Source of the DNA: Deltaproteobacteria bacterium
GTDB lineage: Bacteria > Desulfobacterota > Binatia > UBA9968
Direction: 5' to 3'
NCBI GenBank assembly: GCA_016193465.1
Contig: JACPSE010000081.1
Span: 1-38,922 of the forward strand
Length of the DNA stretch: 38,922 nucleotides
Shown here: positions 6,398 to 38,922 of the stretch, in pieces
How the letters are laid out: each line of letters starts with the position of its first letter
How positions within the stretch are numbered: the first letter of the stretch is position 1
Made by a program: the position numbers and the translations under genes
The notes under the pieces: model-generated
The model's database searches: none
The model's input: only the letters and a program-made list of their open reading frames with translations
What the model was told of the DNA's origin: nothing

Positions 6398-7987
6398 TCA
6401 TTTTGCCGGCGCTCTCCTTTTCATCGCCTTCTCACCGGTCTGGTAGTGTTCCCCTTTCAGCGCGAGCCGCACCTCTTCTTCGTCCTCTTCCGACCAGGAG
6501 CCCAGATGGTAACCGAACCAGGGATCCTCCGGCCTGAGCTTCGGAAGCTCCAATCTCTCCCACAGCTCCCGCGCCCGCTCCATGAACTCGCGCTTGGGAA
6601 GCGAGACCGGCGGATAAGCCCACTTCCGCGTGGCATCAATCAAGAGCGCGGAACAGCCAGCGATTTCTTCCATCGAAACTTCCAGCCCCTTTCCCGGCGG
6701 AAAAGCCGAAGGATCCATGGAAGGCGTGCGATTTCGGATCACCAGCATGTCCCGATGGGGTTGCATCCCGAAGGCTAGGGCCCAGAGGACCGCGTCCATA
6801 TTGCGCGGGTTGATGTCCTCGTCAACCGCGATGACGATCTTGCCGGTGGCAGGGTGGAAGCCGACCATGCAGTGAAGGGCCTGCCAGACATGCGCCTGAT
6901 TGATCTTCTTCAGCCGGATCACGCAGATCTGGCGCACCGCGATCTCATGGAAAGCGACTTCCAGGATGCCCGGTATGTTGCAATCCTCTTTGAGAAAGCG
7001 CAGGTAGTTTCCTTCGGCGGCAAGCTGCTTCATTTTGCTTGATTCGCTTGGAGGGAACTGGCTTACGATGGCCGCAAAGATCGGGCTCTTGCGGTGCGTG
7101 ATGCATGTGACCTCGAAATAGGGATTCAGGAGTTTTTCCCCTATATATCCGGTGGCCTCGCCGAAAGGCGCCTCGGGCTCCAAATGCTCTGTCGAGATCA
7201 AGCCTTCGATCACGATTTCGGCGTAAGCGGGCACCACCATATCAATGGTCTTGCAGCGCACTACCTCGACCGCTCTTTCGGCAATCCCGCCCGCCACATC
7301 CAGCTCGCTCACGGTGAAAGGGACGCGGGCGGGCGCGGTGTAGGCGACGGCCGGCGGCGCGCCGATGACCAGCGCGGCCTCAAGGGGTATCCCCCTCTCT
7401 TGGCACTTTTTCCAATGGTAACCTCCGTGGTTGCTCGCGCCGATATAGACGCCGGTCCGCGCCGGACCTTTGATCTGGCCGCGATAGTTTCCGATATTGA
7501 TCCTCCCGGTCTCGGGATCTTTAGTAAACCAGTGGGACGCGGTCGTGTAGGGAGCACAGTCGAAGCCGGGCGTCGAGATCGGAACCGGGAATTCACCCAG
7601 GCCTCCCTTTTCCAGCAGGGAAGGGTCCATGTGCACCTCTTCGTGAACCGGGCCGCTCGCCACGATCGCGGGAGGAATAGGGTGGGCTTCAGCCTTCGTC
7701 CAGCGCTGCACGATCTCATCAGGCTTGCACTTAAGCCCCACGGCATAGATGTCCCGCGAGGCCGCAAGGCAACCCACGGCGACCGGAATATCATACTTTC
7801 TCCCCCTCACATCGGTCACATTGGTAAAGAGAAAAGCCCTTCTCTCTTCCTCGGGGAGACCACGGAACTGCCATCGGACGAGCGGCATCAGCTCCGTATC
7901 CTTATTGATCGGCGCCTGTATGCGAACCAACAATCCCGCGCTATCCAGCGCTTTGAGTTGCTCTCTCAAATCCAGGTAATAGGCCAT
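6398..7987 (-). CDS. UbiD-family decarboxylase (first of two)
   Basis: 529 residues, the second UbiD/Fdc-type enzyme of the cluster. The motif RINIGNYRG lies at 162-170 with the conserved arginine. YAEIVIEG lies at 255-262 and PEAPFGEATGY at 271-281. It is longer at both ends than its neighbour and has an insertion-free central beta-barrel with the SNHGGYHW stretch near 185. The ATG is preceded by AAGGAG about ten bases upstream. It sits between the bicupin dioxygenase gene (72 bases upstream) and the second UbiD gene (25 bases downstream) on one strand. Decarboxylation or carboxylation of an aromatic acid made or activated by the neighbours is a reasonable inference. Confidence 0.93.
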   Translation of the reverse strand: MAYYLDLREQLKALDSAGLLVRIQAPINKDTELMPLVRWQFRGLPEEERRAFLFTNVTDVRGRKYDIPVAVGCLAASRDIYAVGLKCKPDEIVQRWTKAEAHPIPPAIVASGPVHEEVHMDPSLLEKGGLGEFPVPISTPGFDCAPYTTASHWFTKDPETGRINIGNYRGQIKGPARTGVYIGASNHGGYHWKKCQERGIPLEAALVIGAPPAVAYTAPARVPFTVSELDVAGGIAERAVEVVRCKTIDMVVPAYAEIVIEGLISTEHLEPEAPFGEATGYIGEKLLNPYFEVTCITHRKSPIFAAIVSQFPPSESSKMKQLAAEGNYLRFLKEDCNIPGILEVAFHEIAVRQICVIRLKKINQAHVWQALHCMVGFHPATGKIVIAVDEDINPRNMDAVLWALAFGMQPHRDMLVIRNRTPSMDPSAFPPGKGLEVSMEEIAGCSALLIDATRKWAYPPVSLPKREFMERARELWERLELPKLRPEDPWFGYHLGSWSEEDEEEVRLALKGEHYQTGEKAMKRRAPAK

Positions 7988-8059
7988 ATCTCAAGACTCC
8001 TTGCCGGGCTTCAAACTGAAACATGAGATTCGTGACACGTCCTTGCCTCCTCTCCCGGT

Positions 8060-9082
8060 TTACGCTGTTTCTCGCTTTTCCTCGCGGTAAAAGCCCAGGG
8101 CCTCCACTGAAGGCCGGTCGTTGATTGAGAAAAGGATGGCAGGCTCTTTGAAACGGTTCTCATGTTGGTGCCAGCTCCACAGGGGAACGACAAAGGAATC
8201 TCCCTTTTCCCACTCCATGAGCTTATTGTCCACCACGGTCACGCCGCTTCCGCGAAAGGCATGAAAGATCGACGTATAGGTATGCCGGTGCGAACGGGTT
8301 TTCTCTCCGGGGCGAAGGAGTTGAATCTCGCAGGACATGGACGGCAGCGTCGGCCCGCCAGTCAGGGGATCGACAAAGCGGAGCATTACCCCGTCACACG
8401 GGTCCCCAGGCTTCTCGCTCAGCATCTCGAGCGCTCTCTCTGTCTCCTCCCAGGGGTAACGGTAGGGAGGCCTGAAGCTCCGGTTGGAAAGCGGAGCCTC
8501 CTGAGGTCGAACCACTCCGTAGTTTCGCTTCGACCAGCCGACAGGGCGGACCACCATCTGCTGGGCTTGAACATAGGGCTCTGCGAAGATGACCTGAAAG
8601 TAGTTGATCATGGGACCGTTCGCCCCGTCCAGCCAGATGATGGGCTTCTCGCCGGCGCTGACATGGTCATGCCAGCTCCAGTTGGGCGTGGTGATCAGAT
8701 CACCTTCCTCCATCGGAAACTGCTCTCCCTCTATAATGGTGCAGGCGCCCCTTCCGCCTACAACGAAGCGGATCGCCTCCATCATATGGCGATGGGCAGG
8801 CGCCCTCTCTCCCGGGCAGACCATCTGCGCGCCCATCAGAAGGGTGTGGCTTGTTCCCAGCTTGAGATCCGGGTGCTGAAAACCGATGAACCGGCGGTAG
8901 GCCTCCTCGGGACGGATATAAGCCACGGCCTTTTCCAGGGCGTCATGTATTTCCCGCCATTTCCAGAGAAAGGGGCTGAAGCTTGGCTTCGGTTCGCGAA
9001 AACCGTCGCTGCGGTTGGGAATCATCCAGTAGCCGATAAGGTTTTTTCCCTTAAGCTCTTGATTGAACCCTTCCAAAGACAT
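8060..9082 (-). CDS. Gentisate 1,2-dioxygenase-like bicupin
   Basis: 340 residues with two cupin domains in the arrangement of gentisate/salicylate/1-hydroxy-2-naphthoate dioxygenases, non-heme Fe(II) ring-cleaving enzymes. Domain 1 carries PGERAPAHRHMMEAIRF (His97, His99) and TPNWSWHDH (His138/His140). Domain 2 carries PGEKTRSHRHTYTS (His265, His267) and VPLWSWHQHEN (His305/His307). Both domains therefore keep a potential metal site, whereas many gentisate dioxygenases use only the first. AAGGAGACC precedes the ATG. It lies between the heme-oxygenase-fold gene and the two UbiD genes and is the likely ring-opening step. The true substrate (gentisate, salicylate or a relative) cannot be read from sequence. 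Confidence 0.88.
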   Translation of the reverse strand: MSLEGFNQELKGKNLIGYWMIPNRSDGFREPKPSFSPFLWKWREIHDALEKAVAYIRPEEAYRRFIGFQHPDLKLGTSHTLLMGAQMVCPGERAPAHRHMMEAIRFVVGGRGACTIIEGEQFPMEEGDLITTPNWSWHDHVSAGEKPIIWLDGANGPMINYFQVIFAEPYVQAQQMVVRPVGWSKRNYGVVRPQEAPLSNRSFRPPYRYPWEETERALEMLSEKPGDPCDGVMLRFVDPLTGGPTLPSMSCEIQLLRPGEKTRSHRHTYTSIFHAFRGSGVTVVDNKLMEWEKGDSFVVPLWSWHQHENRFKEPAILFSINDRPSVEALGFYREEKRETA

Positions 9083-34794: not shown

Positions 34795-35937
34795 TTACCC
34801 AGCCTTCTTGGGGTGCCAGTCAAAGCCTCTCTCTTTATAAGCCGCTTCTGGCATCAGACTGGTAATCCCTCTTTTAGCCAACTCCTCTTCGAATCTCTTT
34901 CGAATCCACGGATCCTCGTTATAATATTCAATCATGTCCTTGGCGCGATCTTCGATCTTTTCTGCATGTCCACGAAACTGCCGCGGCGGATGGAGCGCCA
35001 GATACCTGGCCGGAGTGGCGCCTACGTTGAAGTGCTGATGGAACCATTTATTGGGAGGCACAAACATACTTCCCTCGTGCCACGGGCAGACGATCTTTTC
35101 CTTGCCTTCCTCCCATAACACCGAATATCCTTCGCCCCCAGGGATGACAATCACACGCCCCGGCCCGTGCCGGTGCGCTTTCTTGTAGGTCCGATTGGGA
35201 AATACGGACATGTGACAGGACATCTCTGAATTTGGAAACATGATTGTGACGCTAAAACCTCCTCGCTTGTTCGGACTGAAATTATCCCAAGCTCGCATGT
35301 CAGGGAAGAAATTGCCGTACCAGTAAACGCTCTTACCACCCCATGCATGGGCAGGATTGCCATCCTGGACGAGCTTCGCCTCAGAGTAGAGTTCGCCGCC
35401 CCGCCCCAAGCGGTCCTCTTCTTGAAACGGGTTGTTAAAGTAAAAACGCGGCTCAGTGATGAGCGACGATGCCAGTGGCAGGTAACTGTAGCGCAACACC
35501 CGGGCCGGCTTGTCGCCGCGCATATTACCAAGCTGCTGGAAATAATTGTGCGGAATTTGAAACAAACTGCGGTCTTGCCATTCAAAAGTCTTTTTAGGGG
35601 CTGCCTCCGCGGCCCAAACGGTAGTGACACCTCGGCCCTCCAACACATAAATGAATTCATCCAGGGCGAACCTTATTGGAGGCAGGGTTTTCCCTGCCGG
35701 GATCTCCGTGACCATGGCAGAAGTTATCCCTTCCTGCCCCATGAGTTGAATAAACGCCGCATCGCACTGGCGCTCCTCCCACCATCCCAGCTCAACGGTT
35801 CTCAAATCTTCAATAAAGTACCCACGATGGATCGGTATTCCGACCGACTCCATCCAAAGATCGTAAGTGTATTCCTTCGTCTCTAAGTCCGGATTACTCG
35901 ATTCATACACGTTTGTGGCAATTCTTTCTTCTTGCAT
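34795..35937 (-). CDS. Bicupin-fold protein, one metal site retained
   Basis: 380 residues with two cupin domains. The first (about 75-150: AGKTLPPIRFALDEFIYVLEGRG and IPHNYFQQLGN) lacks the H-x-H pair of the cupin motif. The second (about 240-310) keeps it: AHRHGPGRVIVIPGGEGY and WFHQHFNVG, so one metal site is likely. The layout recalls the (S)-ureidoglycine aminohydrolase and dioxygenase bicupins, but I cannot assign the reaction. A good GAGGTAGGAG site precedes the ATG. It is the last gene of the second minus-strand cluster, 134 bases after the aconitase-like small subunit, and may act on the same compound. Confidence 0.78.
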   Translation of the reverse strand: MQEERIATNVYESSNPDLETKEYTYDLWMESVGIPIHRGYFIEDLRTVELGWWEERQCDAAFIQLMGQEGITSAMVTEIPAGKTLPPIRFALDEFIYVLEGRGVTTVWAAEAAPKKTFEWQDRSLFQIPHNYFQQLGNMRGDKPARVLRYSYLPLASSLITEPRFYFNNPFQEEDRLGRGGELYSEAKLVQDGNPAHAWGGKSVYWYGNFFPDMRAWDNFSPNKRGGFSVTIMFPNSEMSCHMSVFPNRTYKKAHRHGPGRVIVIPGGEGYSVLWEEGKEKIVCPWHEGSMFVPPNKWFHQHFNVGATPARYLALHPPRQFRGHAEKIEDRAKDMIEYYNEDPWIRKRFEEELAKRGITSLMPEAAYKERGFDWHPKKAG

Positions 35938-36071: not shown

Positions 36072-36617
36072 TTAGCGCCTCTCGAGCCTCCTAGGTATTC
36101 GACCCGCTTCCACTTCATTTTTTAAGAACGGGATCATTCCTCCAGCGTCCAGTCGCTCCAGGATAAAAGGAGGCGTGGGTTCGAACTTCAGCTCTACCGC
36201 CGACGAGAGGTTCGTCAGATGCCCCCTGTCCAAATTCACTTCAAGCTCATCACCCTGTTTCACCGCCTTCAGAATCCCAGGGAGCTCCACTATCGGCAAG
36301 CCACGCTCTATGGAGTTTCTGAGGAAGTAGGGCGCAGCGGTCTCACAGATGACCGCCGACACTCGAGCGCCTAGGATGGATAGACAGGCATGATCGTGGT
36401 CGTGTCCAAATCCCATGTACTCCGCTATGATGAAATCGCCCGACTGCACTTTCTTTGGAAAATCAGGGTCCACCTTAGTCATACAGTACTTGCCTAGCTC
36501 TTCCTCGGTATAAAGCCCTTTGGCCTGGAGTTCATGAGAGATCTCAAACGGACATATTTCCCAATCGACATCCAGAACGCCGCGAAAAATCCAGGCCCTC
36601 CCTCTTATCGGCTTCAT
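36072..36617 (-). CDS. LeuD-like small subunit with altered catalytic loop
   Basis: 181 residues colinear with isopropylmalate/homoaconitate dehydratase small subunits (aconitase swivel domain). IRGRAWIFRGVLDVD is at the start, DPDFPKKVQSGDFIIA near 50-65, RVSAVICETAAPYFLRNSIERGLPIVELPG near 85-115 and FILERLDAGGMIPFLKNEV near the end. In active enzymes the loop after the Phe-Gly pair reads Cys-Gly-Ser-Ser-Arg-Glu-His-Ala, where Ser and Arg are catalytic. Here it reads GFGHDHDHA, so those residues are missing and three histidines and two aspartates have appeared. It follows the large-subunit gene after 27 bases. The partnership is clear from order; the chemistry is not known. Confidence 0.85.
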   Translation of the reverse strand: MKPIRGRAWIFRGVLDVDWEICPFEISHELQAKGLYTEEELGKYCMTKVDPDFPKKVQSGDFIIAEYMGFGHDHDHACLSILGARVSAVICETAAPYFLRNSIERGLPIVELPGILKAVKQGDELEVNLDRGHLTNLSSAVELKFEPTPPFILERLDAGGMIPFLKNEVEAGRIPRRLERR

Positions 36618-36644
36618 AATTCCTCCTTGACGGTTTTCTCGGGG

Positions 36645-37913
36645 TTAGAGATATTTTCTCGGATCGGCAATTTTCCCCTCAAGACAGGACGCGGCTACTG
36701 TCATTGGATTGCCCAAGTAGATTTGGGCTTGGTTACTACCCATGCGCCCGGGATAGTTGGTTTGACCCGATGCAATACACACCTCATCGTCCGATAACGG
36801 GGTGTTTGCTCCCCATTCCATCCCTTCATTGGGAACAGGCACCACGCACTCAGCCTCGATGAACACTTTGAATAGACCTTCATCCAAAGCCTGACGGAGA
36901 ATATTCGTAGTCCCTGGTGTGATGTTCAGCACAACACGCGGATGGATCTTCCTGCCCTTGAGGATTTGCGCGGCCATGCGCAAGTGCTCCAGCCATCCCC
37001 CGGCATCACTGCCGATGAACCCTCGGTTGATTGGGGTCCCTTCCAGATCCTTGACCGATCTTACAACGTGGCGCTTGGGCGGCGATACGACCTGTGGTTC
37101 CAAGTCCGAAATATCAAATTCGTAGACTTTAGCGTACTGAGCATCGGGGTCACTCACCTGAGGCTCAAAAGGTTCTTTTGTTCGCGCCCGGACATAGTCG
37201 AGAGTTTTTCCGTCGGGGTTGATAATCGCAGTCCACGCCCCTGTAAAGATTGCCAAGGAACAGAGAGAAAACCGCTCGTCCATACTCAAGGCGTCAATGA
37301 CCGGACCGGTCCACTCAATCATCGCGCCTCCCGCTCCTGTGGGTCCGATCTGCCCAAGGATGCATTCAAAAACGTCCCGCGCACAGGTCCCTTTCGGAAG
37401 TTTCCCATTGACAACGATCTTTACCGAACGTGGAGCCCGGATCCACGTCTTTCCCGTCATGAAATACGAGCCGCGTCCGTATGAGAGGGTTGTGGCGAAA
37501 GCGCCCAGCGCGCCGTTGCCGCTCGAATGGCCATTGACAGCCTGGAGGTAAACCTCTCCAGGCAATGCCCAGGCCCTTTCAGCAGAAAACATATTTTCGA
37601 TGCCGCCTCTTCCGAGAATGTAGATATTTTCTTCGGGAATGCCGACGGCTTTTGCCCATTCTCTCGTAATGCGGCGTGATCTGGCTGCATTGTGGGAAGC
37701 GGTAGCCCCGAGGTGACCGTCCACGATCCTGATAAGCTGGGGATTGAAAACCCCGACTCCCCACTCAACGCAGAACTCCAAGCCGCCCCGTAAGTTACCG
37801 AAATTCCCCATGGGCGTGGGGCATCGGCTGCTCACTTCGATGTACTCACCGGGTGAAACTTTCTTTCGACCAGCAGCTCTGGCCAGAATTTTTTCCGTGA
37901 TCGTTTTTCCCAT
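36645..37913 (-). CDS. LeuC-like large subunit lacking the [4Fe-4S] ligands
   Basis: 422 residues colinear with LeuC/homoaconitase large subunits: TITEKILARAAG at the N-terminus, SSGNGALGAFATTLSYG near 130, EWTGPVIDALSMDERFSLCSLAI near 200 and NYPGRMGSNQAQIYLGNPMTVAASCLEG at the end. By hand alignment the three cluster cysteines are all replaced: GSCT becomes GSDA near 290, and the CxxC of the PGCxxC loop becomes Asn and Met near 355. The catalytic His of GIVH and the Asp of DSHT are also changed (GGIEN, VNGHS). It should not bind a normal [4Fe-4S] cluster. It is encoded just before the small-subunit gene and 39 bases after a binding-protein gene. The substrate and the reaction are unknown. 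Confidence 0.85.
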   Translation of the reverse strand: MGKTITEKILARAAGRKKVSPGEYIEVSSRCPTPMGNFGNLRGGLEFCVEWGVGVFNPQLIRIVDGHLGATASHNAARSRRITREWAKAVGIPEENIYILGRGGIENMFSAERAWALPGEVYLQAVNGHSSGNGALGAFATTLSYGRGSYFMTGKTWIRAPRSVKIVVNGKLPKGTCARDVFECILGQIGPTGAGGAMIEWTGPVIDALSMDERFSLCSLAIFTGAWTAIINPDGKTLDYVRARTKEPFEPQVSDPDAQYAKVYEFDISDLEPQVVSPPKRHVVRSVKDLEGTPINRGFIGSDAGGWLEHLRMAAQILKGRKIHPRVVLNITPGTTNILRQALDEGLFKVFIEAECVVPVPNEGMEWGANTPLSDDEVCIASGQTNYPGRMGSNQAQIYLGNPMTVAASCLEGKIADPRKYL

Positions 37914-37952: not shown

Positions 37953-38922
37953 TTAAGGTTTTTTATAAACGCTCTGAATGAAACCGGAGCTTTCAAGTTT
38001 GTTGATAAAGCTGTTATCTACGACCGTTTCCGGTCGCACAGTCGCCAATTTGGGATTAATCGAGGTCAGAATGCCGTGTAGCCTTTTCATCGCATCAACG
38101 TTGGCGTAGGGGATGCGCTCGTAGGCATGGGACACTGACTGGTAGGCCTCCTCCGCGTCAGCCGGGTTGCTCAAGCGCAGGTGGGAAGCCATGGTGCGTT
38201 TCACGATCTCTTTATTCGCCGGCTCCGCAATAAATGCGATGCCCTCGATAAACGCCTTCACGTAGGCCTCCACGAGCTGGGGCTTATTGGCAGTAATCCG
38301 GCGCGTGGTTAAGACCATTGTCTGCGGCAGGGTGATGCCCGATCCTGTGAAATTAAAGAGCGCGGGGTAGCCCTTGTTTCGGTATAAGTCACCCATGGCG
38401 CCCCTGAGCGGTGTGGCATCGACACTGCCAGACTCTAGGGCCAACCGGCGGTTGAGCTCGGTGCCGGGAATCGATATAAGACTGATCTTGGCCTGATTTG
38501 GCTCTATGCTCAAATTTTGCAGGGCCAGCAGGGCCACAATATGCGAGGTAGCGCCGGGGCCGCTAATCGCCAACCGCTTCCCCCTGAGGTCCTCTGGCTT
38601 CTTGATTTCAGGTCTAGCACTTAACGTATAGTCCAACTTTTGGAAGAAGTTGGCGACACCAATGACTTCGGCCCCGCCGACAGCGGCGTTCAAGAGGTGT
38701 CCCGGCCCGGTCACTGCCATGTCGATCTCGCCCGTCACTAGCGCCGCAATACTCAAGGGCGCTCTGGGCATGAGAATGAGTTGCACAGCTAGGCCGTGCT
38801 TGCGGAAGAGACCCTGCTCGTTGGCCACCCACACTACAGTTACGCTCTCGCCTGAGACGCTCGTAGCAAAGTTGCTCTTTATTAATTGCGGATGGGCCAG
38901 GGAGGGTACATGCAGGGTCAGG
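37953..38922 (-). CDS. NMT1/SsuA-type ABC substrate-binding protein, 5' end cut by window edge
   Basis: At least 323 residues are visible; the reading frame stays open to the window edge and the N-terminus lies outside. Landmarks of the NMT1/TauA/SsuA family are VVWVANEQGLFRKHGLAVQLI, VTGEIDMAVTGPGHLLNAAVGG, KKPEDLRGKRLAISGPGATSHI and the C-terminal VVDNSFINKLESSGFI. The start is not in the window (an internal GTG at 38834 is not the real start). Such proteins bind sulfonates, pyrimidine precursors or other organic ligands for an ABC importer. No permease or ATPase is beside it in the window. It leads the aconitase-like and bicupin genes and may bring in their substrate. Confidence 0.88.
   Translation of the reverse strand, partial: LTLHVPSLAHPQLIKSNFATSVSGESVTVVWVANEQGLFRKHGLAVQLILMPRAPLSIAALVTGEIDMAVTGPGHLLNAAVGGAEVIGVANFFQKLDYTLSARPEIKKPEDLRGKRLAISGPGATSHIVALLALQNLSIEPNQAKISLISIPGTELNRRLALESGSVDATPLRGAMGDLYRNKGYPALFNFTGSGITLPQTMVLTTRRITANKPQLVEAYVKAFIEGIAFIAEPANKEIVKRTMASHLRLSNPADAEEAYQSVSHAYERIPYANVDAMKRLHGILTSINPKLATVRPETVVDNSFINKLESSGFIQSVYKKP

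Follow-up and report, generated by a model that had tools for sequence, protein, structure and literature searches.

What becomes of an aconitase-type enzyme when the ligands of its iron-sulfur cluster are gone? The question is raised by a gene pair encoding a two-subunit relative of LeuCD and aconitase near one end of the DNA analyzed here (the window; 38,922 nucleotides, which is the whole of contig G000:C23 in a genome of 4.5 Mb and 238 contigs). The reading we favor, at a probability of about 0.4, is that the pair is a catabolic hydro-lyase in which the active site was remodeled first and the cluster was later replaced by what would be a carboxylate metal site.

The gene pair and its superfamily

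Four genes follow one another on the minus strand in the order solute-binding protein of the NMT1 type, large chain, small chain, and bicupin, with gaps of 39, 27, and 134 bp.

37953..38921, minus strand: NMT1/SsuA-type solute-binding protein, truncated at its 5′ end where the contig stops
36645..37913, minus strand: large chain, LeuC/HACN type, 422 amino acids; intact open reading frame; Pfam PF00330, 165 bits; 4nqy, E = 2.2e-64
36072..36617, minus strand: small chain, LeuD type, 181 amino acids; intact open reading frame; 3vba, E = 3.7e-36
34795..35937, minus strand: bicupin, neighbor of the pair, 134 bp after the small chain

An earlier note on this DNA had described the pair as intact and adjacent, and both frames are indeed open, on the same strand and 27 bp apart. 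Ribosome-binding sites precede both genes, that of the small-chain gene being strong (AAGGAGG). The solute-binding protein gene, 39 bp before the large chain, likely belongs to the same operon. A promoter and terminator scan gave no more candidates than shuffled sequence (2 versus 2.4 and 2 versus 4.8).

The LeuC-like order ascribed to the large chain was borne out by end-to-end matches to solved LeuC/HACN chains (4nqy, E = 2e-64; 4kp2, 6e-57), residues 1 to 419 aligning on LeuC 4nqy. The large chain scores above the Pfam PF00330 (Aconitase) cut-off and the small chain above no Pfam cut-off. Against NCBIfam, the large chain reaches at best 323 of 385 bits, below every cut-off of the families matched, and the small chain reaches 94.9 of 108.95 bits, below the cut-off of TIGR02087. 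With LeuCD and homoaconitase (4nqy, 4kp2, 3vba, and 2pkp, which we take to be of the Methanocaldococcus type), the pair has in common full-length homology and the two-subunit architecture, with domains 1 to 3 on the large chain and domain 4 as a separate chain. Unlike them, it has no cluster cysteines (D303, E363, and E366 instead), no Ser-Ser-Arg loop with its serine general base (GHDHD instead), and no DSHT motif. Judged from sequence, the pair is a member of the aconitase superfamily by descent, yet it lacks both the cluster ligands and the Ser-Ser-Arg loop that define the two-subunit enzymes.

The window protein has no match to the Pfam AcnX family (PF04412) up to E = 1, and an Azospirillum member of the clade described below has a weak one (18.2 of 31.5 bits). 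Aconitase X is likewise a branch of the superfamily with an altered cluster site. It retains a [2Fe-2S], [3Fe-4S], or [4Fe-4S] cluster held by cysteines, according to two reports (PMC8184944, PMC10040528), whereas none of the three cysteines is left in the window protein.

Cluster positions and the remodeled active site

The large-chain positions that bear on the cluster and on catalysis are as follows.

37005..37007, minus strand: codon GAT, Asp303, first cluster cysteine position (Cys358 of mitochondrial aconitase)
36825..36827, minus strand: codon GAA, Glu363, second cluster cysteine position (Cys421)
36816..36818, minus strand: codon GAA, Glu366, third cluster cysteine position (Cys424)
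37593..37595, minus strand: Asn107 at the His147 position (GIxH motif); His in the nearest relative
37527..37535, minus strand: Asn127-Gly128-His129 replacing Asp-Ser-His (165-167)

The nearest relative (G010:C62; hereafter, the sister pair) is 62% identical in the large chain and 56 to 57% identical in the small chain, and it aligns without gaps at the cluster sites (window first, PNEGMEWG versus PACGMCYG and GSDAGG versus GSCADG). It keeps all three cluster cysteines, which align with those of mitochondrial aconitase and are faced by D303, E363, and E366 in the window protein. The ligands of mitochondrial aconitase are Cys358, Cys421, and Cys424, as given in PMC8184944. The earlier note had correctly seen that all three cysteines are gone, but its assignment of Asp, Asn, and Met to the three columns is rejected by the gap-free alignment: the Asp is right, and the Asn and Met are N362 and M365, each one residue before the true column. 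The sister codons are TGC, TGC, and TGC, compared with GAT, GAA, and GAA in the window, so that nine of nine bases differ. An assembly or sequencing artifact, for which one might point to the single assembly of 238 contigs and the contig end nearby, is hardly credible against nine base differences spread over three separate in-frame codons with the frame left open.

Among 80 large chains (chains shorter than 360 amino acids, weak hits, and contained duplicates were left out; the 99% identical Azospirillum rows L115 and L139 were both kept), the cluster columns read Cys-Cys-Cys in 73, His-Thr-Asn in 6 that form one separate clade, and Asp-Glu-Glu in the window protein only. Three large chains that are each broken, L059 and two from Polaromonas, stand outside the 80 and the tree, and their pieces show three cysteines. 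On these alignments, a classical three-cysteine [4Fe-4S] site is excluded in the window protein, and the replacement of all three cysteines is placed after the split from the cysteine-keeping sister. Of the earlier suggestion that the enzyme is cluster free or differently metallated, the loss of the three-cysteine cluster therefore stands, and the three acidic replacements make a different metal plausible.

The large chains of the window and the sister differ at 160 positions, 19 of which are changes to Asp or Glu in the window protein; three acidic residues out of three would have a probability of about 0.002 if the changes were independent, an estimate made post hoc. That every one of the three ligand positions turned acidic speaks for a putative functional site; caution is called for by the additional loss of His147, by the long branch, and by the existence of only one example. 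We know of no precedent for three noncysteine ligands of an iron-sulfur cluster, which counts against the idea that the window protein still binds such a cluster through its carboxylates. A glutamate did ligate a [2Fe-2S] cluster in an engineered AcnX mutant, but the report presents this as the first glutamate ligand and a very uncommon arrangement (PMC8184944), and we consider a carboxylate-bound cluster very improbable.

Changes elsewhere in the active site are numerous. The earlier note had reported altered GIVH and DSHT motifs, and GIxH does read GIEN and DSHT reads NGHS. The NGH at positions 127 to 129 is common to the window protein and its sister, and the plasmid relatives with a GHPH small-chain motif have DGH. 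In an earlier set of 58 large chains (chains shorter than 380 amino acids or below 140 bits were left out; its seven His-Thr-Asn rows correspond to the six above, L012 and L039 being the same gene), 38 columns are invariant among 49 cysteine-keeping chains, the sister apart; these chains were picked for their three cysteines, and the cluster columns are invariant by construction. The window protein departs at 14 of the 38 columns and the sister at 11. Positions 66, 114, 125, 127, 128, 142, 183, 223, and 385 are changed in both proteins; H107, C303, D310, C363, and C366 are changed in the window protein and kept by the sister; and P333 and E377 are changed in the sister only. The window-only changes thus comprise the three cluster ligands, His147 from the hydrogen-bond network of the cluster, and one other residue, and the nine changes common to the sister suggest that much of the active-site remodeling took place before the cluster was lost. 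The description of the pair as otherwise well conserved proved half right, since among columns conserved at 90% or more in the 49 chains, 51 of 81 are kept by the window protein and 55 of 81 by the sister.

Aligned to aconitase, position 127 corresponds to Asp165, position 128 to Ser166, position 223 to Glu262, position 385 to Arg447, and position 107 to His147; position 66, outside the aligned aconitase stretch, would be Asp100. Aconitase has the pairs Asp100-His101, Asp165-His147, and Glu262-His167. If this pairing is right, all three His-carboxylate pairs are without their carboxylate in both the window protein and the sister. Asp165, His167, and His147 form the hydrogen-bond network of the fourth iron of aconitase, according to a published account.

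A clade marked by a His-x-His small chain

The small chain carries a replacement of its own.

36396..36404, minus strand: His72-Asp73-His74 of the small chain replacing Ser-Ser-Arg (642-644), the mark of the HxH clade

The GHDHDHA loop noticed earlier was confirmed, GHDHD standing in place of GSSRE, and His72 and His74 are invariant in seven of seven aligned small chains. Among 94 small chains, 8 rows read HPH and 2 read HDH; two further rows, from Roseomonas, were out of register in this alignment and read HNH when examined separately. GHPH replaces GSSR in plasmid relatives from Azospirillum, Variovorax, Comamonas, Polaromonas, and Rhodococcus. When the 80 large chains were placed in a tree without the three cluster columns, the bearers of this loop form a clade of 10 rows (support, 100/99) composed of the window protein, its sister, two Roseomonas chains, and six chains of the GHPH group, two of them 99% identical; Polaromonas is counted in the clade by motif only. 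The window protein is the only row without Cys-Cys-Cys, the other nine having all three. Its grouping with the sister is firm (100/99), the fork joining Roseomonas to these two has support of 94/52, and long branches meet within the clade (Rhodococcus L136 and Roseomonas), which makes its inner order unsure. The clade traits are the HxH small chain, Gly at the Ser166 position, loss of Arg447, and Phe at the Glu262 position except in Roseomonas.

The earlier proposal that the His/Asp loop is a new metal partner that came with the loss of the cluster does not hold, and the loop was rejected as a replacement metal site evolved for that purpose, because relatives that keep all three cysteines carry it too. 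No function is known to us for this clade, which comprises chains from plasmids of Azospirillum, Variovorax, Comamonas, Rhodococcus, and Roseomonas and from the sister genome. In the annotated records examined, its members bear the generic names "aconitase family protein" and "3-isopropylmalate dehydratase", and, unlike the window protein with its Asp-Glu-Glu, the other clade rows and the two broken Polaromonas chains have Cys-Cys-Cys. These sequences are best read as an uncharacterized clade of LeuCD-type two-subunit hydro-lyases, of which the window pair would be the terminal member.

Nine rows of the same bacterial family (L036, L042, L057, L010, L011, L014, L016, L017, and L037) adjoin the HxH clade (19 rows together, 95/92). 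They keep the cluster cysteines (SECGxC or PECGLC), have DE at the conserved large-chain DH, and read SSA, SSS, or ASD for SSR in the small chain. The sister genome also encodes a second LeuD-like small chain in tandem (L020:9921-10586), which is 42% identical to the window small chain, has an inserted loop ending in HLH, and has no Pfam match at E 0.01.

The earlier note had suggested listing the genomes that carry the pair, and close relatives occur in 2 of 148 genomes of the class, that of the window included (E ≤ 1e-74). At the same threshold, 37 of 395 genomes of the phylum pass, again including the window's, and the best of the others are 39 to 40% identical and score at most 274 bits. 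Of 29 phylum loci fetched, 28 have full chains, all with Cys-Cys-Cys, and the 29th is broken by a stop and has the cysteine motifs. A clade profile (A6) at E ≤ 1e-120 matches 2 of the 145 genomes searched in the class and 15 of the 395 in the phylum, where the window protein scores 677 bits and the next protein 418. On plasmids, 32 records match the Azospirillum chain at E ≤ 1e-60; identity is at least 60% in 7 of these, counting the record of the query itself, and the Rhodococcus plasmid chain is 47% identical to the query. No match was found at E ≤ 1e-92 in nine genomes around L019, outside the phylum; no relative was confirmed in two scans of viral contigs; and a scan of genome contigs gave one locus, a cysteine-keeping 40% relative. 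The single-genome status of Asp-Glu-Glu holds for the sample searched.

Is the window pair, then, a pseudoenzyme that has lost catalysis and is decaying or serves a noncatalytic role? This is the main rival, and we hold it to be somewhat unlikely. The pair has lost the cluster, His147, Arg447, Glu262, and the Ser-Ser-Arg loop, the example is single, and the branch of the window protein is about twice that of the sister (0.67 to 0.74 versus 0.32 to 0.35). The genome has other LeuC-type genes, which probably makes the pair dispensable for housekeeping. Against decay stand the acidic nature of all three replacements, the two intact genes with their ribosome-binding sites, and the occurrence of the active-site changes other than that of His147 in the cysteine-keeping sister, by which they predate cluster loss. 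Comparison of window and sister gave a pN of 0.25 and a pS of 0.81 for the large chain and 0.31 and 0.85 for the small chain, values that cover both branches jointly and in which pS is saturated; pN below pS points to purifying selection over much of the joint history. AlphaFold models had a mean pLDDT of 37.9 for the small chain alone and 34.0 for the large chain with one relative, from one- and two-sequence alignments.

A second rival is a metal-free enzyme, in which the acidic residues and the HxH loop would take part in acid-base chemistry or bind a cationic substrate. The carboxylates in place of ligands would suit it, and so would the absence of arginine from positions 447, 580, and 644, which face the substrate; the substrate therefore probably differs. 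The nine other clade rows keep their cysteines, however, and the chemistry of the clade probably needs a Lewis acid; we regard a metal-free enzyme as distinctly unlikely.

Loss of all three cysteines has a parallel in the His-Thr-Asn LeuC group of the same bacterial family, which, unlike the window protein, falls in a separate clade (100/100) and keeps DSHT, with SGR in the small chain. Its members come from six genomes of the family: contig C41 of the window's own genome (L021:11366-12622), L009, L029, L039, L040, and L056. The own-genome gene adjoins a cysteine-keeping LeuCD pair, UbiD-type decarboxylases, and NMT1-like binding proteins. As a conserved clade, the His-Thr-Asn group is perhaps the better test case for cluster-free catalysis.

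Neighborhood and candidate activity

Ten clade loci offer gene information (Polaromonas again by motif), with a solute-binding protein in view at eight and a lyase-family gene at four. In two Azospirillum and one Variovorax, the pair is part of an operon-like array whose other genes encode an FAD-binding oxidoreductase, an MBL-fold hydrolase, a member of the isocitrate lyase/PEP mutase family, and a branched-chain-type ABC transporter together with its binding protein. ABC permeases follow the pair in Comamonas and in one of the two Polaromonas copies, where the genes in view include no binding protein; the other Polaromonas copy lies ahead of a tripartite-tricarboxylate binding protein, and both Roseomonas copies come after one. 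Adjacent to the sister pair, the opposite strand carries a solute-binding protein gene and two lyase-family genes. There is no lyase beside the pair in the window, whose contig ends in the NMT1 gene. From these neighborhoods, the role common to the clade would be a hydro-lyase reaction in a pathway that degrades an organic acid taken up by the cell.

The possibility, raised in the earlier note, that the bicupin and NMT1 genes always accompany the pair was not upheld, as neither was matched at E ≤ 1 in 18 kb around the sister pair. The bicupin was rejected as an obligatory partner because genomes that lack the pair carry many members of its family: at E ≤ 1e-40, it occurs in 35 of 145 class genomes, with up to at least 13 matches each, and the window's genome has an 86% identical copy elsewhere. 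At least 13 matches are found in many genomes of the order, and no solved structure is closer to the bicupin than E 0.08.

A phosphonate pathway with PEP mutase, like that of pantaphos, was also considered. The motif EDKxxxxxNS, presumably that of PEP mutases, is in none of the five PEP-mutase-family neighbors read (two at the sister locus, one from Azospirillum, one from Variovorax, and one from Ancylobacter, which is not part of the clade), and PKRC is in four, so that these neighbors are likelier lyases. In the pantaphos case, the LeuCD homologs HvrDE are proposed to dehydrate phosphonomethylmalate (PMC7858074). The two genes of this family at the sister locus are in tandem (L020:6848-7858 and 7878-8741), with PKRCG in the second only, and the first may be inactive or different in role.

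We hypothesize that the favored catabolic hydro-lyase arose in two steps. Remodeling of the active site, common to the sister (NGH, with Glu262, Arg447, and the Ser-Ser-Arg loop lost), would have come first, and the cluster would have been lost afterwards with the change of its cysteines to D303, E363, and E366. The enzyme would still add water to, or remove it from, a small organic acid imported via the adjacent solute-binding protein; the carboxylates, perhaps with a small-chain histidine, would coordinate a divalent metal (Mg, Mn, Fe, or Zn), and that metal would serve as the Lewis acid in place of the lost fourth iron. The more specific proposal, a mono- or dinuclear site built from Asp303, Glu363, Glu366, and the small-chain His-x-His in place of the [4Fe-4S] cluster, is possible but doubtful. 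In favor of the metal-site hydro-lyase are the change to Asp, Glu, and Glu at every cluster position, where the sister has Cys; the single such row nested among nine Cys-Cys-Cys rows (100/99); the intact frames, ribosome-binding sites, and purifying selection; and the catabolic-looking context of the clade (binding protein at 8/10 loci, lyase family at 4/10). Against it are its occurrence in one genome, the additional loss of His147, a long branch likewise expected of a decaying enzyme, the lack of a lyase in the window, and the permeases without a binding protein in view at 2/10 loci.

A metal switch of a related kind is known from porphobilinogen synthase, in which a three-cysteine metal site has given way to acidic residues in some lineages; unlike the window protein, that enzyme has an unrelated fold and a Zn rather than an Fe-S site. 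The literature searched, drawn mostly from outside subscription journals, yielded no cysteine-less catalytic enzyme of the aconitase family, and a search on the 2,3-dimethylmalate dehydratase DmdAB gave nothing of use.

The aconitase superfamily is known by its cluster, and even aconitase X keeps one (PMC8184944, PMC10040528). Carried by cultured bacteria under generic family names, the HxH clade differs from the textbook active site at several further positions. Acidic residues at three ligand positions, together with a cysteine-intact sister, constitute a natural experiment on cluster loss, and the window protein may catalyze chemistry of the same kind with another metal. If true, the metal-site reading would provide a natural example of a cluster enzyme converted to a form that is perhaps oxygen stable, and the cysteine-keeping sister would serve for comparison.
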